DNA from: Hadesarchaea archaeon
Lineage (GTDB): Archaea > Hadarchaeota > Hadarchaeia > Hadarchaeales > Hadarchaeaceae
DNA: 64,000 nucleotides
Direction: 5' to 3'
NCBI GenBank assembly: GCA_029259175.1
Contig: JAPDJH010000004.1
Location: 1 to 64,000 of the forward strand
Shown here one piece after another: positions 26,846 through 47,728 of this stretch. The stretch's first letter is position 1. Each line of letters opens with the position of its first letter. The notes under the pieces are model-generated. The model was not told where the DNA came from, did not search any database, and saw nothing but the letters and a program-made list of their open reading frames with translations. The translations under genes were made by a program, and so were the position numbers.

Positions 26846-27085
26846 CTAAGGTTGACTCCTGAGTTTAGGAGGAAATGACAAAGGTTTGTCATCGGAACGC
26901 AGGGGCACCACGAGCGCCCGCCCTCCGTTAGAATTGACGAGTTCGGCGAGCGCGCGGCACTGCTCAGGATTCTCCAGCTTCCACACGGACTGCTGGATCT
27001 GCTCGGCTCTGCACTGGTGGAGCTTTCGATTGAGCCTCAGCGCATTGTTTGTCCCGCAGATATCGTACACCAGCAGGTACGGCAT
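26846..27085 (-). CDS. Cas2-like protein B (solo)
   Basis: A 79-residue protein, the first 63 residues of which show the Cas2 fold pattern: beta1 PYLLVYDICG with the conserved Asp-8, helix NALRLNRKLHQCR, beta2 EQIQQSVWKLE, helix PEQCRALAELVNSNG and beta4 RALVVPL. Like protein A it is slightly shorter than usual Cas2. Palindrome 26875-26892 is read in frame as residues 65-70, directly after the fold. ATG start with a TATA box about 30 bp upstream. No cas1, cas4 or interference gene is present. Role unknown; DNA or RNA nuclease, VapD-like toxin or palindrome-binding regulator are all possible. Confidence 0.72.
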   Translation of the reverse strand: MPYLLVYDICGTNNALRLNRKLHQCRAEQIQQSVWKLENPEQCRALAELVNSNGGRALVVPLRSDDKPLSFPPKLRSQP

Positions 27086-27300
27086 CTCCCACGATCGCTT
27101 TGCGCTGAAGGTTGCTTATAAAGGAACAATAGAGCGGATGCTGGAATGACAAAGGTTTGTCACTCACTAAGCCACACTCCCACGATAAAGGTTTGTCAAA
27201 GACCGGCTGTGACAAAGGTTTGTCATCCGCTAGAAAAGTCAAGCTCTCATGACAAAGGTTTGTCAAAGCTCAGACACCAGTTGCGACAAAGGTTTGTCAT
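26875..27300 (+). repeat. palindrome array B: six ATGACAAAGGTTTGTCAT elements around Cas2-like gene B
   Basis: Six copies of an 8-bp inverted repeat around an asymmetric GG: 26875-26892 (perfect 18 bp, in the reading frame), 27146-27163, 27182-27199 (one arm mismatch, GATAAA), 27209-27226, 27249-27266 and 27283-27300. All have GG on the plus strand. Centre spacing is 271, 36, 27, 40 and 34 bp; the last five form a compact array with unrelated 9-22 bp spacers. Reversed, the element reads ATGACAAACCTTTGTCAT and shares 12 of 18 positions with array A. Confidence 0.93.
27106..27124 (-). promoter_or_regulatory. TATA-box promoter of Cas2-like gene B
   Basis: Minus-strand CCTTTATAAGCAACCTTCA, with TATA at 27115-27124, 30-39 bp upstream of the ATG. 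Seventeen bases are identical to the promoter of the coiled-coil gene (4246-4262). Palindrome 27146-27163 begins 22 bp further upstream, the same arrangement as in locus A. Confidence 0.68.
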
Positions 27301-27314
27301 CCGTCAACGGGCAG

Positions 27315-28496
27315 CTACTCTCTCCCCAGCAGCAGCCTCATAAACTCCGGCCCCTCCACAAATCCCAGCGACCCCTGCGCACCCGCCCGCTCACAAAACG
27401 CCAGCCCGTCTCCTCTCTCTCCCGGCCTGTAAATCACGAAAGGAATCGGATCCGATGTGTGAACTTTTTTCGAAACGGGCGTCGGGTGATCCGGCAGCAC
27501 CGCAATCGTGCACCCCTCGGCCCGCTCAACTATCGGACCCACCAATCTGCGATCGAACTCCTCGAGCACGCGCACCTTCCGCTCGGCACTCCCCTCGTGA
27601 CCCGCCTCGTCCGGCGCTTCAACGTGCACGTACACCAGATCATTTCTTTCCAGAGCCTTGAGCGCGTGATCGGCCTTCCCCTCGTAGTTGGTGTCGTAGT
27701 AGCCCGTGGCCCCGGGCACGTCAACGATTTCCATTCCCGCATAAACACCTATCCCCTTGATCAGCAGAACCGCGGAAATCATCGCCCCCTGGATTCCGTA
27801 CCGCCGCTCAAAGGGCTCGAGCCGCGGCCTTGGACCAGGACTCCACAACCATATCATGTTGGCCGGTCTCTTCCCTTCCTCCCTCCTGCGCCGGTTCACC
27901 GGGTGCTCCGAGAGCACGTCCCGCGACCGCAGCATCAGCTCGTTCAACCGCTTTCCGAGCCCACCCGCCTCTGGCGGTATGAGGTGTTCATCTATCGCCT
28001 CCCCCACTATGTTGTGCGGTGGCGTGCACCCAAGCGTAATCTCGGCACCGCGAACCACGAAGATATGTCTGTAGCTCACCCCGACAAAGAACTCTCCAAC
28101 CCCCAGCTTCGCAACCTCTCGGAGGAGCTCCCTGGCCTCTCCCGTGCTCACGTGCCCCGCCGAATAGTCCACCATCCGTCCGCCCTCCACCGTCACCAGA
28201 TTGCACCTGAAAGCCACATCGCGCTCGCCCAGCCGGACACCCATCGCCCCCGCCTCCAGCGGTCCGCGTCCCGTGTAGTACCGCCTCGGATCGTATCCCA
28301 GAATCGAGAGATTGGCAATCGAGGAATCCGGCTCCATCCCCTCCGGAATCGTTTTTAACATCCCCATTCTCCCATGCCCTGCAAGCCAATCCATATTGGG
28401 AGTGTCGGCGGCCTCGAGGGGTGTTCGGCCACCCAGCTCCTCAACCGGATAATCAGCCATTCCGTCCCCAACGATCACTACGTACTTCACCCGCAT
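27315..28496 (-). CDS. apgM: 2,3-bisphosphoglycerate-independent phosphoglycerate mutase, archaeal type
   Basis: Interconverts 3- and 2-phosphoglycerate in glycolysis and gluconeogenesis; alkaline-phosphatase superfamily. The 393-residue protein starts MRVKYVVIVGDGMADYPVEE (metal-binding Asp), with TPNMDWLA, PDSSIANLSILGYDP (nucleophile Ser) and the C-terminal metal site VHVEAPDEAGHEG and LPDHPTPVSKKVHTSDPIP. The ATG at 28496 fits the family; upstream codons belong to the preceding gene, whose stop overlaps it (TGATG). The pairing with a SerK-like gene suggests a link of 3-phosphoglycerate to serine metabolism. Confidence 0.95.
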   Translation of the reverse strand: MRVKYVVIVGDGMADYPVEELGGRTPLEAADTPNMDWLAGHGRMGMLKTIPEGMEPDSSIANLSILGYDPRRYYTGRGPLEAGAMGVRLGERDVAFRCNLVTVEGGRMVDYSAGHVSTGEARELLREVAKLGVGEFFVGVSYRHIFVVRGAEITLGCTPPHNIVGEAIDEHLIPPEAGGLGKRLNELMLRSRDVLSEHPVNRRRREEGKRPANMIWLWSPGPRPRLEPFERRYGIQGAMISAVLLIKGIGVYAGMEIVDVPGATGYYDTNYEGKADHALKALERNDLVYVHVEAPDEAGHEGSAERKVRVLEEFDRRLVGPIVERAEGCTIAVLPDHPTPVSKKVHTSDPIPFVIYRPGERGDGLAFCERAGAQGSLGFVEGPEFMRLLLGRE

Positions 28497-29341
28497 CACC
28501 TGAAAACCAATATTTCTTCTTCGTAGCGCCTGCCCTCCCACACCGACCCGGGCGGCAGGCGTTCCACCCGCCGGTTGCTGAGCCGTTCCTCAAACATGCG
28601 ATTGACTTCGTCGAGCGGAATGGTGTCGTAAAGCCATTCCAGAGGCACACCTATGTTCACGGGACGCGCCGGAACCATGTGTCGAGTCGTCTTGTGAGCA
28701 AACACGTGGCCCGCGAGCGCCAGCTGCAACACCTCCTCTTTTTTCACGCACGGAACCATCAGCACCCCCGTCTCACCCACCCTTCGCTCAGCATCCTCCT
28801 CGTGCTCATAGCTGATCTCCGCACCCTCCTCGCGCAGCGCCAGCTCCAACCGCTTCACCCACGTATATGCCTCGAGCACATCGCCTTTCCGACCTCCCTG
28901 CACCATCAGACATCCTGAGACCGTGCGGTACGCCGCAATTATCTCTCTCCGCTCCAGCGCTTCCTTGGCCTCCGCTGGCGAAGACGACAGGACCTTTAGA
29001 CCCAACAGCCGAACTATCTCGACGAATTTCTCCTCGCCAATCCCCTTGACCACCCGATACCAGCACCCCACCTTTATCGCTGGGTGCCGGTAGTCCACCT
29101 CGCACACGGGCAGGCGCGTACACCCCAACTTCTCCAATGCGGCAACGCGGTGCATCCCGTCCAGCACCACCAGCGAGCGCTCATCCACGAGCACCGGATC
29201 CTTGACCGCATTGTTCTGCTTTATGTCCGCGATCAGCTGCTCGAGGAGCTCCGGAACTATCTCCTCGTGAATCAGCACGTCCCCTATCTCCAATATCCTC
29301 AGCTTTAGCGCAAGCCCAGCCGTCCTGAACTCGAAAACCAA
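28496..29341 (-). CDS. ParB/Srx-fold protein, probable SerK-like free serine kinase
   Basis: About 281 residues from a TTG start. Residues 20-80 form a ParB/sulfiredoxin domain (LIHEEIVPELLEQLIADIKQ, DPVLVDERSLVVLDGMHRVA ALEKLG as separate parts), followed by a larger C-terminal region (VFAHKTTRHMVPARPVNIGVP). This layout and the DGMHRV loop match archaeal SerK, an ADP-dependent kinase making O-phosphoserine, and related ParB-like proteins. The start is uncertain: ATG at 29440 adds a doubtful N-terminus overlapping the RNA candidate's T-rich end. It is translationally coupled with apgM. A plain DNA-binding ParB role is less likely because no helix-turn-helix is evident. Confidence 0.72.
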   Translation of the reverse strand: MVFEFRTAGLALKLRILEIGDVLIHEEIVPELLEQLIADIKQNNAVKDPVLVDERSLVVLDGMHRVAALEKLGCTRLPVCEVDYRHPAIKVGCWYRVVKGIGEEKFVEIVRLLGLKVLSSSPAEAKEALERREIIAAYRTVSGCLMVQGGRKGDVLEAYTWVKRLELALREEGAEISYEHEEDAERRVGETGVLMVPCVKKEEVLQLALAGHVFAHKTTRHMVPARPVNIGVPLEWLYDTIPLDEVNRMFEERLSNRRVERLPPGSVWEGRRYEEEILVFR

Positions 29342-29423
29342 ATGTACCAGCCGTAAGTATGTGGAATTGAAAGAAAAAAATGTTGCTCCACGGAGATTTT
29401 CGAATACGTTAAAAAAAAATTTA

Positions 29424-29574
29424 AGACCGCGAGTCCCCATAGGTAGACTGGGAGAGGGTCAGTGCCCCCTAGAGGGGCAGTTGGCATGCACTCACCATTG
29501 CCCCGAGGGGCTCAGAGTGCCAACCGTTCATCATCCCCTCTCCCACGCCTCATCCACACGGCTCGGCGCGGTCT
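29424..29574 (-). ncRNA. candidate box C/D-like structured RNA
   Basis: Read on the minus strand: terminal helix AGACCGCG (29574-29567) with CGCGGTCT (29431-29424), then a 9-bp stem GGGAGAGGG (29544-29536) with CCCTCTCCC (29458-29450). Directly inside this stem lie box C, GATGATGA (29535-29528), and box D, CTGA (29462-29459), a canonical kink-turn layout. An internal CTGA (D', 29515-29512) sits exactly 12 nt after box C, and ATGGTGA (C', 29498-29492) follows 13 nt later. The C'-D interval is 29 nt with its own hairpin, longer than usual. A T9 run follows on the minus strand. It lies between radA and the SerK-like gene. Confidence 0.6.
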
Positions 29575-29594
29575 CTTACCGAGGACTCACGGCC

Positions 29595-30524
29595 TCAGTC
29601 CCTCACGCCCGCCTCCGTTATCCTGAACGTCGCACTCTCGGGCGGCAAACACGGGTGGTCGACCAACTTCGCGATCCGCAGGTTTTCTCTGGCCTTGCGC
29701 AGATAGATCCGGGCAGTCATAGCATGGCCGAGCACATGCCCTCCTATTGGCCTCGTCGGATCACCGAAAAGCACATCCGGCCGCGCCTGCACCTGATTGG
29801 TCACCAGCACCGCCACATCGTATAGCTCCGCCACCCGGTGAAGGGCTGCGAGGTGCTTGCCCAGCTTCTGCTGCCGCTCCGCAAGCATTCCGCGGCCGCA
29901 GTACTCTGCTCGGAAAAGAGCCGTCACCGAGTCCACCACCAACACCCGCGCTTTGTGCTTCTCCACCAGCCTGTCCGCCCGCTCCACCAGCAGCATCTGG
30001 TGGTCAGTCGTGTGCGCCCGAGCCACACAAATGCGCTCCAGAACCTCTCTAGGATCCAAGCCCAAGGCTGTGGCCATCTGCGCTACTCGCTCCGGCCGGA
30101 AGGTATTCTCCGTGTCCACGAAAATCGCTCCTCCTCCCAGTCCTCCCTGCTCCAGCGGTAGCTGAACGTTGACCACCACCTGATGTGCGAGCTGCGACTT
30201 CCCGCTCCCGAACTCGCCGAAAACTTCTGTAACACCGTCCGTCTCGATGCCCCCACCCAGCAACTTATCCAAATTGGAGCTGCCCGTGGTCACACGCCCC
30301 ACGCACTGGCGGCGCTCATAGAGGACGCTGGCAAGCTCATAATCCAGCTTGGCTGCCTCCCGCGCGGACTGGATGATGCGAATGGCCGTGTTAAACCCGA
30401 TCCCTGCAGAGCCCGCTAGCTCACTCGCGGTCACCGTCGCAAGCCTCAAGGGGGTATCAAATCCCGCTTCCCGAAGCTTCTCGGCAATTGCGGGACCAAC
30501 TCCATCCAACTCTTCCAAATCCAT
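29595..30524 (-). CDS. radA: RadA recombinase
   Basis: Archaeal RecA/Rad51-family strand-exchange ATPase for homologous recombination. From the ATG at 30524 ([20 protein letters not shown]) it is 309 residues. An N-terminal helix-hairpin-helix domain (residues 1-60) precedes the core with Walker [14 protein letters not shown], Walker [18 protein letters not shown], and L2 region [25 protein letters not shown]. The upstream ORF extension overlaps the promoter region shared with the divergent lsm gene and has no family similarity. No intein. Confidence 0.97.
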
Positions 30525-30644
30525 CAAAAACCACCTCCGCTTGCGTTTTTCGAGAAAGTGGTAAGCCATATCTTTAAACGTTTTCCGGGGAGAGGGGTCG
30601 GTGAAAGTAAATCGTTTTATCCGCTCAAAGCACACCCCTATGTG

Positions 30645-31485: not shown

Positions 31486-31971
31486 CTACCGCATTATTCC
31501 CGGCACGATCTCGTAGAGCTTGTGGAAGAGTTCCTTCAACACTTCGCTGTGATCGTATATTTTTTCCTCACCCTCCAGAGTCTTGGTGGAATAGAGGATC
31601 TGGACGGGCATTATCCGGGAGAGCACTATCGCTACCGATCCCAGCACAAGACTCATCGCCTGTGTCCCACCGCTGTAGTTGATCATCACCCGGTCATCGG
31701 GCTTCAGATTTTCCAGGATTTGCCCTAGCGCATCCCCGATCGACTCTGGGTCAAATGGGTCGCATTTATAGATATGTAGCTTGGCCTTCACCCGCTTGGC
31801 AACGTTTTTGAGAACCTCGTGATTGCTGATCTTGTAGCCTTGCTCCACCGCAACATAGCGAAGCCCGTCCTCTCCCGCAACCACGTGACACACATCGGGC
31901 TTTTTCCTCAAAATAACGAGTTCAAGCGCCCGCGGGTGCAATCCCAAGGTGAGTATCGCGATCTTTCTCAT
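31486..31971 (-). CDS. stand-alone CARF-like domain protein
   Basis: A 161-residue protein with a Rossmann-like fold of the CARF type: MRKIAILTLGLHPRALELVI (beta1, loop, helix), a middle strand HIYKCDPFDPESIG, and the diagnostic strand-loop-helix MINYSGGTQAMSLVLGSVAIV near residue 100. CARF domains bind cyclic oligoadenylates in type III CRISPR signalling; CARF-only proteins of this size can be ring nucleases or regulators. No effector nuclease domain is fused. The ATG overlaps the stop of the upstream gene (ATGA). No type III genes are in the window, so the ligand assignment is inference. Confidence 0.65.
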   Translation of the reverse strand: MRKIAILTLGLHPRALELVILRKKPDVCHVVAGEDGLRYVAVEQGYKISNHEVLKNVAKRVKAKLHIYKCDPFDPESIGDALGQILENLKPDDRVMINYSGGTQAMSLVLGSVAIVLSRIMPVQILYSTKTLEGEEKIYDHSEVLKELFHKLYEIVPGIMR

Positions 31972-32222
31972 TTCTCCTTTCCCCACGTCTCCAAGTTGAG
32001 CTGCTTTGCTCGCTCTTGGAGCTTCATCAAAATATAGTTTCTGGCCTGCACAGCATCGGCTTCCCCCTCCAACGAGCGACTGATCTGTTGCAACCGCTTG
32101 GATGCAAAAAGCTCAAAAGCCATCTCAACATCGGCATCGGAGAGCGGCGCATCCTTCACCTTATCTACCAGCACCTCAGACGCTTTTTCAACTATCCAGT
32201 CCAATTGCGAGAAATCTCTCAC
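31968..32222 (-). CDS. small helical protein coupled to the CARF-like gene
   Basis: An all-helical, charged protein of about 84 residues from a GTG at 32222 (VRDFSQLDWIVEKASEVLVD...). Further upstream ORF sequence overlaps the promoter and start of the divergent nitroreductase gene, so the shorter form is preferred; a TTATTTTTAAG element lies 30-38 bp upstream. The C-terminus overlaps the CARF gene start. I do not recognise the family; it may be a partner or a small effector of the CARF protein. Confidence 0.55.
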   Translation of the reverse strand: MRDFSQLDWIVEKASEVLVDKVKDAPLSDADVEMAFELFASKRLQQISRSLEGEADAVQARNYILMKLQERAKQLNLETWGKEK

Positions 32223-46483: not shown

Positions 46484-47728
46484 TTTCTTGATCGCTTTCT
46501 CAACGCCCATCTGTTCTTGCTTCCCCGACTTCATATCCCGGAGCACCACACGCCCAGCCGCTCGCTCCGCCGGGCCTATGAGCACCACGTAAGATACGCC
46601 GAGCGCGTTCGCGTGGGCGAGGGATTTCGCGAGCTTTCGATCGGCGAGCTCTAATTCAGTGGAGATGCCTTGGCGTCGGAAGTCCAATGCTATTCTAAAG
46701 GCCTCTGGAACGTCTTCTCCCGTAACGGGGATCACCATCACTTTTGGTTCCGTGGAAAACGACAGAGATTTCGATTCTAGAACCAGCTTGGCCAAACGAT
46801 CGACGCCGAACCCCACGCCTGTGGCGGGGGTGGGGGGTCCGCCTAGCGTTTCAACGAGAGTATCATAACGTCCCCCGCCAGCGACCTGCACCCCCCGCAC
46901 GTAGATCTCAAAAACCACTCCGGTGTAGTAATCGAGCCCGCGCGCTATGCTCAAATCGACGCTGAACGGTATTTTCAAAGAGCGCAAGAAATTCAGGATT
47001 CGAGCAAAGTCCTGCAGAGAAGACCTGTCGACAAAAGTTGACGGAAGTTCCTCCAGGACATCCGGTGTGCCCTTGGTGGAAAACACCTTTTTGAGTTCTT
47101 GGGCTCTGTCACTGCTCATGCCCGCCCGCTTCAGTTCACGGTCAATGCGCTCTTCATCTTTAGAATCTACGGCGCGGAGGATTGGATCTTGGTCTCTTTC
47201 TTGAACTCCCGATGCCCTGAGGGCCCTGCGAAGGATGTCCACGTTGCCTATTCGTAGATCCCAAGAGGAGAACCCCAATTCCCTCATTGCTTCAGTAGCG
47301 GTAAGGATCACTTCAACATCGCACGCGGGGTTGCTGCTCCCTATCACTTCGGCCCCGGCTTGGTAGAACTGTCTCCACCGGAAGGCTTGGGGCTCCTCAT
47401 AGCGGAAGCAGTGCCCAAAGTAGCAGAGCTTGAGTGGTTTTGGTGCGGACTTGAGATGCTGAGCATAGAGCCGGATCACGGGCGCTGTGAGCTCCGGTCT
47501 CAGGGCCAGATCGCGGCCGGATTTGTCTCTGAACGCGTAGAGCTGTTTAACCACCTCGCTGCCGCTCTTGCGTGTAAACAAGTCCAAATGTTCAAACATG
47601 GGTGTCTCGACCTCCTGATATCCGAATCTTTGAAACACTGAAGCGAGAGTTTTGGTGACCCCGCGTATGCTATTCAGTTCCTCTCCCATGAGGTCCCGAG
47701 TTCCTCGAGGGGTCTGAAAATCAGTCAA
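46466..47728 (-). CDS. hisS: histidyl-tRNA synthetase
   Basis: Class II synthetase of 420 residues charging tRNA-His. Motif 1 is in YQEVETPMFEHLDLF, motif 2 in CYFGHCFRYEEPQAFRWRQF with QAGAEVIGS, and the histidine-specific peptides IARGLDYYTGVVFEIY and GGRYDTLVE are present. The C-terminal anticodon domain follows (VMVIPVTGEDVPEAF). The aglB stop overlaps its start by 4 nt, so the two genes are co-transcribed. Confidence 0.97.
   Translation of the reverse strand: MTDFQTPRGTRDLMGEELNSIRGVTKTLASVFQRFGYQEVETPMFEHLDLFTRKSGSEVVKQLYAFRDKSGRDLALRPELTAPVIRLYAQHLKSAPKPLKLCYFGHCFRYEEPQAFRWRQFYQAGAEVIGSSNPACDVEVILTATEAMRELGFSSWDLRIGNVDILRRALRASGVQERDQDPILRAVDSKDEERIDRELKRAGMSSDRAQELKKVFSTKGTPDVLEELPSTFVDRSSLQDFARILNFLRSLKIPFSVDLSIARGLDYYTGVVFEIYVRGVQVAGGGRYDTLVETLGGPPTPATGVGFGVDRLAKLVLESKSLSFSTEPKVMVIPVTGEDVPEAFRIALDFRRQGISTELELADRKLAKSLAHANALGVSYVVLIGPAERAAGRVVLRDMKSGKQEQMGVEKAIKKLKPIT

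Follow-up and report, generated by a model that had tools for sequence, protein, structure and literature searches.

A probable lineage-specific structured RNA with a predicted L7Ae-type kink-turn, situated next to radA and upstream of the gene for a SerK-like kinase in a Hadesarchaea archaeon

What is encoded in the short interval that separates radA from a gene for a SerK-like free serine kinase in a Hadesarchaea archaeon (GCA_029259175.1)? The stretch of DNA analyzed here, 64,000 nucleotides long (contig JAPDJH010000004.1, positions 1-64,000) and referred to below as the window, had been assigned at this point a box C/D-like RNA. The kink-turn is readily recognized; whether the rest of the element is that of a guide RNA is the question addressed below.

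An element between radA and serK

The element occupies the minus strand between the two genes, with a 5' end near 29595 and a 3' end near 29424 (~172 nt); both ends are predicted, being set by an outer helix, P1. The first-pass annotation had drawn the limit at 29574, and the start indicated by P1 lies 21 nt further out. The 5' end is the last base of the stop codon (29597-29595) of the upstream neighbor radA (29595-30635, minus strand; Rad51 family, E 5e-89), so that the stop codon touches the RNA. The downstream neighbor, the SerK-like gene (28496-29350, minus strand; PDB 5x0b, E 6e-20), lies outside it. A T9 tract just past P1 (29412-29420, minus strand) is, judged from sequence, a likely archaeal terminator; no promoter was identified for the RNA.

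P1 pairs a 5' arm (29581-29595) with a 3' arm (29424-29438). It encloses a small hairpin, P2 (CGGU-AAGAG-ACCG, 29569-29581), a second hairpin, P3 (GCGCC-GAGCCGUGUGGAUGA-GGCGU, 29545-29569), whose loop letters are strongly conserved, and P4, the canonical stem of the kink-turn, in which the 9-bp 5' arm GGGAGAGGG (29544-29536) pairs with the 3' arm CCCTCTCCC (29458-29450). The bulged strand of the kink-turn carries box C, GAUGAUGA (29528-29535), and the non-bulged strand carries box D, CUGA (29459-29462). Between the boxes are a hairpin H1 (29478-29526), closed by CGGUUGGCA/UGCCAACUG and holding the guide and D' box of the first-pass annotation, and a shorter hairpin H2 (CCCCUCUAGGGG, 29466-29477). 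A conserved 3' strand, AGUCUACCUAUGGGG (29435-29449), supplies a linker and the start of the P1 3' arm.

The window copy has a 3-nt bulge, GAU, followed by GAUGA (GATGA in the DNA) opposite CUGA, with the tandem sheared G-A motif (GA/GA) and the 9-bp flanking stem; read from its letters, this is a textbook kink-turn of the box C/D type. That much agrees with the original description, as do the 12-nt interval between C and D' and the second interval of ~29 nt with its CCCCTCTAGGGG hairpin. Two further pairings survive in part. GTTGGCA and TGCCAAC can indeed pair, but as part of a conserved hairpin rather than as a bridge between two guide halves, and the 8-bp outer helix AGACCGCG/CGCGGTCT can form in the window copy but is not kept in a second copy of the element (the paralog, described below); the 15-position P1 is supported instead.

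The window copy folds with a z-score of -5.2, and none of 200 shuffled sequences was equally stable. In a comparison of strands, z was -5.05 on the minus strand and -3.34 on the complement, a difference due to G-U pairs that favors the minus strand as the RNA strand; the paralog gave -4.99, so that both copies reach about -5 on the RNA strand, against about -3.4 on the complement. The fold common to the two copies has an energy of -75.5 kcal/mol, compared with -92.6 kcal/mol for the minimum-energy fold; minimum-energy folds lack P2 and some of H1. A minus-strand RNA that has a kink-turn of the L7Ae type and an oligo-T end is well supported as a prediction.

Several other features were noted in this part of the genome. 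A small ORF at 26846-27085 (minus strand) resembles Cas2 (Pfam Cas2, E 0.001, below the cut-off; no PDB match). A 16-nt palindrome, TGACAAAGGTTTGTCA, is present in six copies within 26846-27306: the copy at 26876 is inside this ORF, and the other five, with a spacing of 27-40 nt, occupy 27147-27306. ORF and palindromes together look like a solo Cas2-like mini-array. Two relatives, G014 and G016 (loci L052 and L054), have other short repeats (TTTCACAGGTGTGAAA; ATCGGTGTTAGGTGTTACC) after radA, around a different small ORF; these small ORFs appear Cas2-like by eye, and Pfam gave no confirmation. Positions 31486-31986 of the window encode a small protein with weak similarity to CARF domains (Csm6/Card1 CARF, E ~2e-4 to 6e-4, below the cut-off).

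A second copy and the common fold

A second copy of the element is located in the same genome at C2:149564-149771, 120 kb away. BLAST against the organism's own genome recovered it as two blocks of 82-86% identity (C2:149567-149751, minus strand; E 1.9e-11 and 9.8e-9). A covariance model, R1, scores 246 and 199 bits for the two copies; R1 was built from both, so these values serve only to set its scale, and the BLAST match is the independent evidence. Over the two copies the element is ~172-202 nt long.

Shared by both copies are P1 (15 positions), the small hairpin P2, P3, the kink-turn stem P4, and an inner hairpin, along with nearly unchanged blocks: GUAAGARAC; GCGCCGARCCGYGYGSAUGAGGCGYG; GGGGAUGAUGAACGGYUGGCACU; GGCRCUGACCC; and CUCCCRGUCURCCUAUGGGG. 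Boxes C and D have the same letters in the paralog, and 13 of the 15 letters of the conserved 3' strand are identical. The paralog P4 (GGGAGGGG/CCCCUCCC) is one pair shorter than that of the window copy, and in its kink-turn either the bulge is 2 nt long or one C must bulge out. The second interval is where the copies part: H2 is replaced in the paralog by an unrelated, longer hairpin.

Divergence within the helices largely preserves pairing. In P1, 6 positions are the same, 7 are changed and still paired (one by a double change), and 2 are broken in the paralog. P2, which reads CUAGU-AAGAA-ACUAG there, shows two compensatory double changes and one position paired in the paralog only; P3, for which the paralog could form an alternative hairpin, has one single change, and one double change (U-A to C-G) and one single change (G-U to G-C) are found at the base of H1. 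Altogether, counted over P1, P2, P3, and the base of H1, 12 of 15 changed base pairs can still form in the second copy, four of them through double changes, an outcome with a probability of 0.018 if half were kept by chance. Coming from two sequences, such covariation provides good, not overwhelming, support for the common fold.

The paralog also bears on two explanations tied to the radA-serK context. Its setting is different: it lies downstream of a same-strand gene and faces a convergent ORF, with no same-strand gene directly downstream. (The gene upstream, L031 2530-4059, encodes a HEPN domain, E 4e-9.) Because the window element begins right at the radA stop codon and runs out in T9, it might be taken for an elaborate radA terminator or a set of chance hairpins; we regard this reading as highly improbable, given that the paralog is conserved away from any radA context and that z is about -5 in each of the two copies.

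One proposal of the first-pass annotation is an L7Ae-binding regulatory element of the SerK-like gene. The position of the RNA would suit such an element, or a leader that acts in cis by binding L7Ae or a ligand: the SerK-like gene follows directly, on the same strand. L7Ae-binding mRNA leaders (l7ae and others; PMC5539422) likewise carry a box C/D-like kink-turn ahead of a gene. Unlike those leaders, this RNA has a far larger fold and is separated from serK by the T9 tract, and the paralog is not a leader. Cis-regulation of serK is very unlikely because the paralog faces a convergent gene; in addition, where radA adjoins serK in relatives (G002, G006, G009, G013, and G014), the spacer lacks the RNA.

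The methylation-guide reading

Archaeal C/D guides are 10-12 nt long and lie upstream of D' and D (PMC7994747). The exact 12-nt distance from C to D' invites a reading of the element as a non-canonical box C/D guide, in which ACGGUUGGCACU, before the D' CUGA, would pair with the 530-loop of 16S rRNA (GGUGCCAGCCG) and either direct 2'-O-methylation of the C equivalent to Escherichia coli C518 or help the rRNA to fold at that site, as a chaperone. The window element forms an 11-bp match, including 2 G-U pairs, with SSU positions 479-489; the corresponding element of the paralog, ACGGCUGGCACU, matches the same site over 11 bp, one of them G-U; and the target would fall in helix 18, known as a hot spot for the C/D methylation predicted in archaea (PMC4644070).

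A guide is expected to complement rRNA or tRNA under the fifth-nucleotide rule, and over rRNA the 530-loop is the best match of both copies. The matches themselves are not significant: 26 of 400 shuffled guides did as well for the window copy and 12 of 400 for the paralog (7% and 3%), which is also how the rRNA comparison suggested by the first-pass annotation turned out. Nor is the paralog match independent, as 11 of the 12 letters of the element are common to both copies. Given the helix 18 hot spot, we keep the guide as a rival, though not as the explanation.

Structure weighs further against it. Like archaeal box C/D sRNAs, the element has a terminal stem and a C/D kink-turn, the latter with the same boxes (GAUGAUGA/CUGA) in both copies. 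It differs in its length, its extra outer helix, and its two outer hairpins. The D' box CTGA (29512-29515) of the window copy reads ACAA in the paralog, in which C' is not recognizable either, so that an internal C'/D' pair is not conserved across the two copies compared. Two single-stranded guides are likewise absent: the 12-nt element forms the base of the conserved H1 hairpin in both copies, with a compensatory change, and the D-side guide lies inside H2, in the interval of ~29 nt that is exchanged in the paralog. With no D' in the paralog, a guide enclosed in a conserved hairpin, and a swapped second interval, the paralog lends no support to methylation guiding by a C/D RNA, and we consider this reading improbable; the element is well supported as a variant rather than a normal C/D sRNA. 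A perfect-looking C/D box and a 12-nt interval are, in this case, insufficient for calling a guide RNA.

Rfam gave no match to either copy at the gathering threshold; below it, weak look-alikes of C/D sRNAs were found in the window copy and none in the paralog. The nearest, sR3 (RF01133), is a weak local match (UGAUGAAC-GUUGG---CUGAGC) of 19 bits against a gathering score of 41, covering half the length of a 55-nt guide RNA. This genome has matches to the archaeal models for RNase P, SRP, and SSU rRNA; identity with RNase P RNA or SRP RNA was considered and rejected, both being found elsewhere in the genome. The LSU rRNA match (L233 1501-5397; G000:C3:141350-145246) extends over 3897 nt, compared with a 2987-position model, so the gene probably holds introns or large insertions.

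Distribution and proposed role

Searches with R1 over overlapping sets of 121, 394, 39 (with laxer filters), and 399 archaeal genomes (the last being relatives of another archaeon) identified no convincing homolog, same genus included, among candidates that R1 preselects by sequence, a step that a relative alike in fold only could escape. Outside the organism's own genome no score exceeded 19 bits (E 0.001 per genome), as expected by chance for that many genomes, and the printed alignments from other genomes lack the set of conserved blocks. BLAST loci in relatives (five were read) and model hits with printed alignments were rejected as chance-like, several lying in apparent coding DNA. Pattern loci in viral contigs scored ~14 bits or less with R1; plasmids (queried with the window copy) and phages (queried with the paralog) gave no match. 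A pattern scan of genome contigs returned mostly planctomycete and other bacterial loci and no named relative; three archaeal loci from it were tested with R1. A second model, R2, served for cross-checking only, its RNAalifold structure being partly wrong with the inner hairpins cut out. A GC-rich segment of the window (46802-46901, plus strand) matches the models weakly (10-16 bits), probably by chance.

That the RNA was found in one genome only, as two diverged copies, hints that it was acquired by horizontal transfer or along with a mobile element. The RNA could itself be a part or relic of such an element; examples would be a TnpB/IS605-type guide RNA and a non-autonomous small element with P1 as its ends. 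This origin would be in keeping with the two copies here and none found in close relatives, with the RNA-free radA-serK spacers of relatives, and with the relation of the Pyrococcus abyssi kink-turn RNAs sRk48, sRk52, sRkB, and sRkC to orphan OrfB/TnpB elements (PMC3124441). We judge it rather unlikely. Around the two TnpB-like fragments of the genome (C3:10172 and C3:13312), no sequence convincingly resembles the RNA, and no link to a TnpB gene end was found; neither copy showed a transposase or an obvious target duplication; and the divergence of the P1 arms is compatible with G-U pairing, which fits a functional RNA better than the ends of a DNA element.

The closest described case, by analogy, is the set of repeated kink-turn or K-loop RNAs of P. 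abyssi, which are of similar size (~130-340 nt for sRkB, sRkC, and sRk52), intergenic, repeated in one genome, and expressed, and which bind L7Ae (PMC3124441). As the searches suggest for the present RNA, sRkB and sRkC are specific to their genome and absent from related ones. These two bind L7Ae through kink-turns and sRk52 through a K-loop; sRkB has two kink-turns, and one P. abyssi copy and an OrfB/TnpB gene overlap at the gene's 3' end, a feature not seen here (PMC3124441). The likeness is one of description, apart from any comparison of sequences.

On balance, the element is probably a stand-alone, lineage-specific structured RNA, whose likeliest function is that of a trans-acting small RNP scaffold with L7Ae. 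A transcript would be made from the locus, and L7Ae would bind and bend its kink-turn; the bend may pack the variable hairpins H1 and H2 onto a core of P1, P2, and P3, and the conserved unpaired letters of the P3 loop and the AGUCUACCUAU linker could form a site for a partner RNA or protein, the whole acting in trans.

Most of what is known of L7Ae-based RNPs in archaea concerns guide RNAs, RNase P, SRP, and ribosomes. The RNA described here may, more tentatively, represent a new class of archaeal L7Ae RNP RNA: a junction RNA that is built around a C/D kink-turn, with hairpins H1 and H2 as exchangeable modules, present as two specialized paralogs in one lineage and serving a role other than methylation guiding. 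Although we hold this to be somewhat less than an even prospect, if true it would mean that a separate RNA has borrowed the L7Ae scaffold, combining a fixed core with swapped hairpins, and that it joins the few orphan kink-turn RNAs of archaea.
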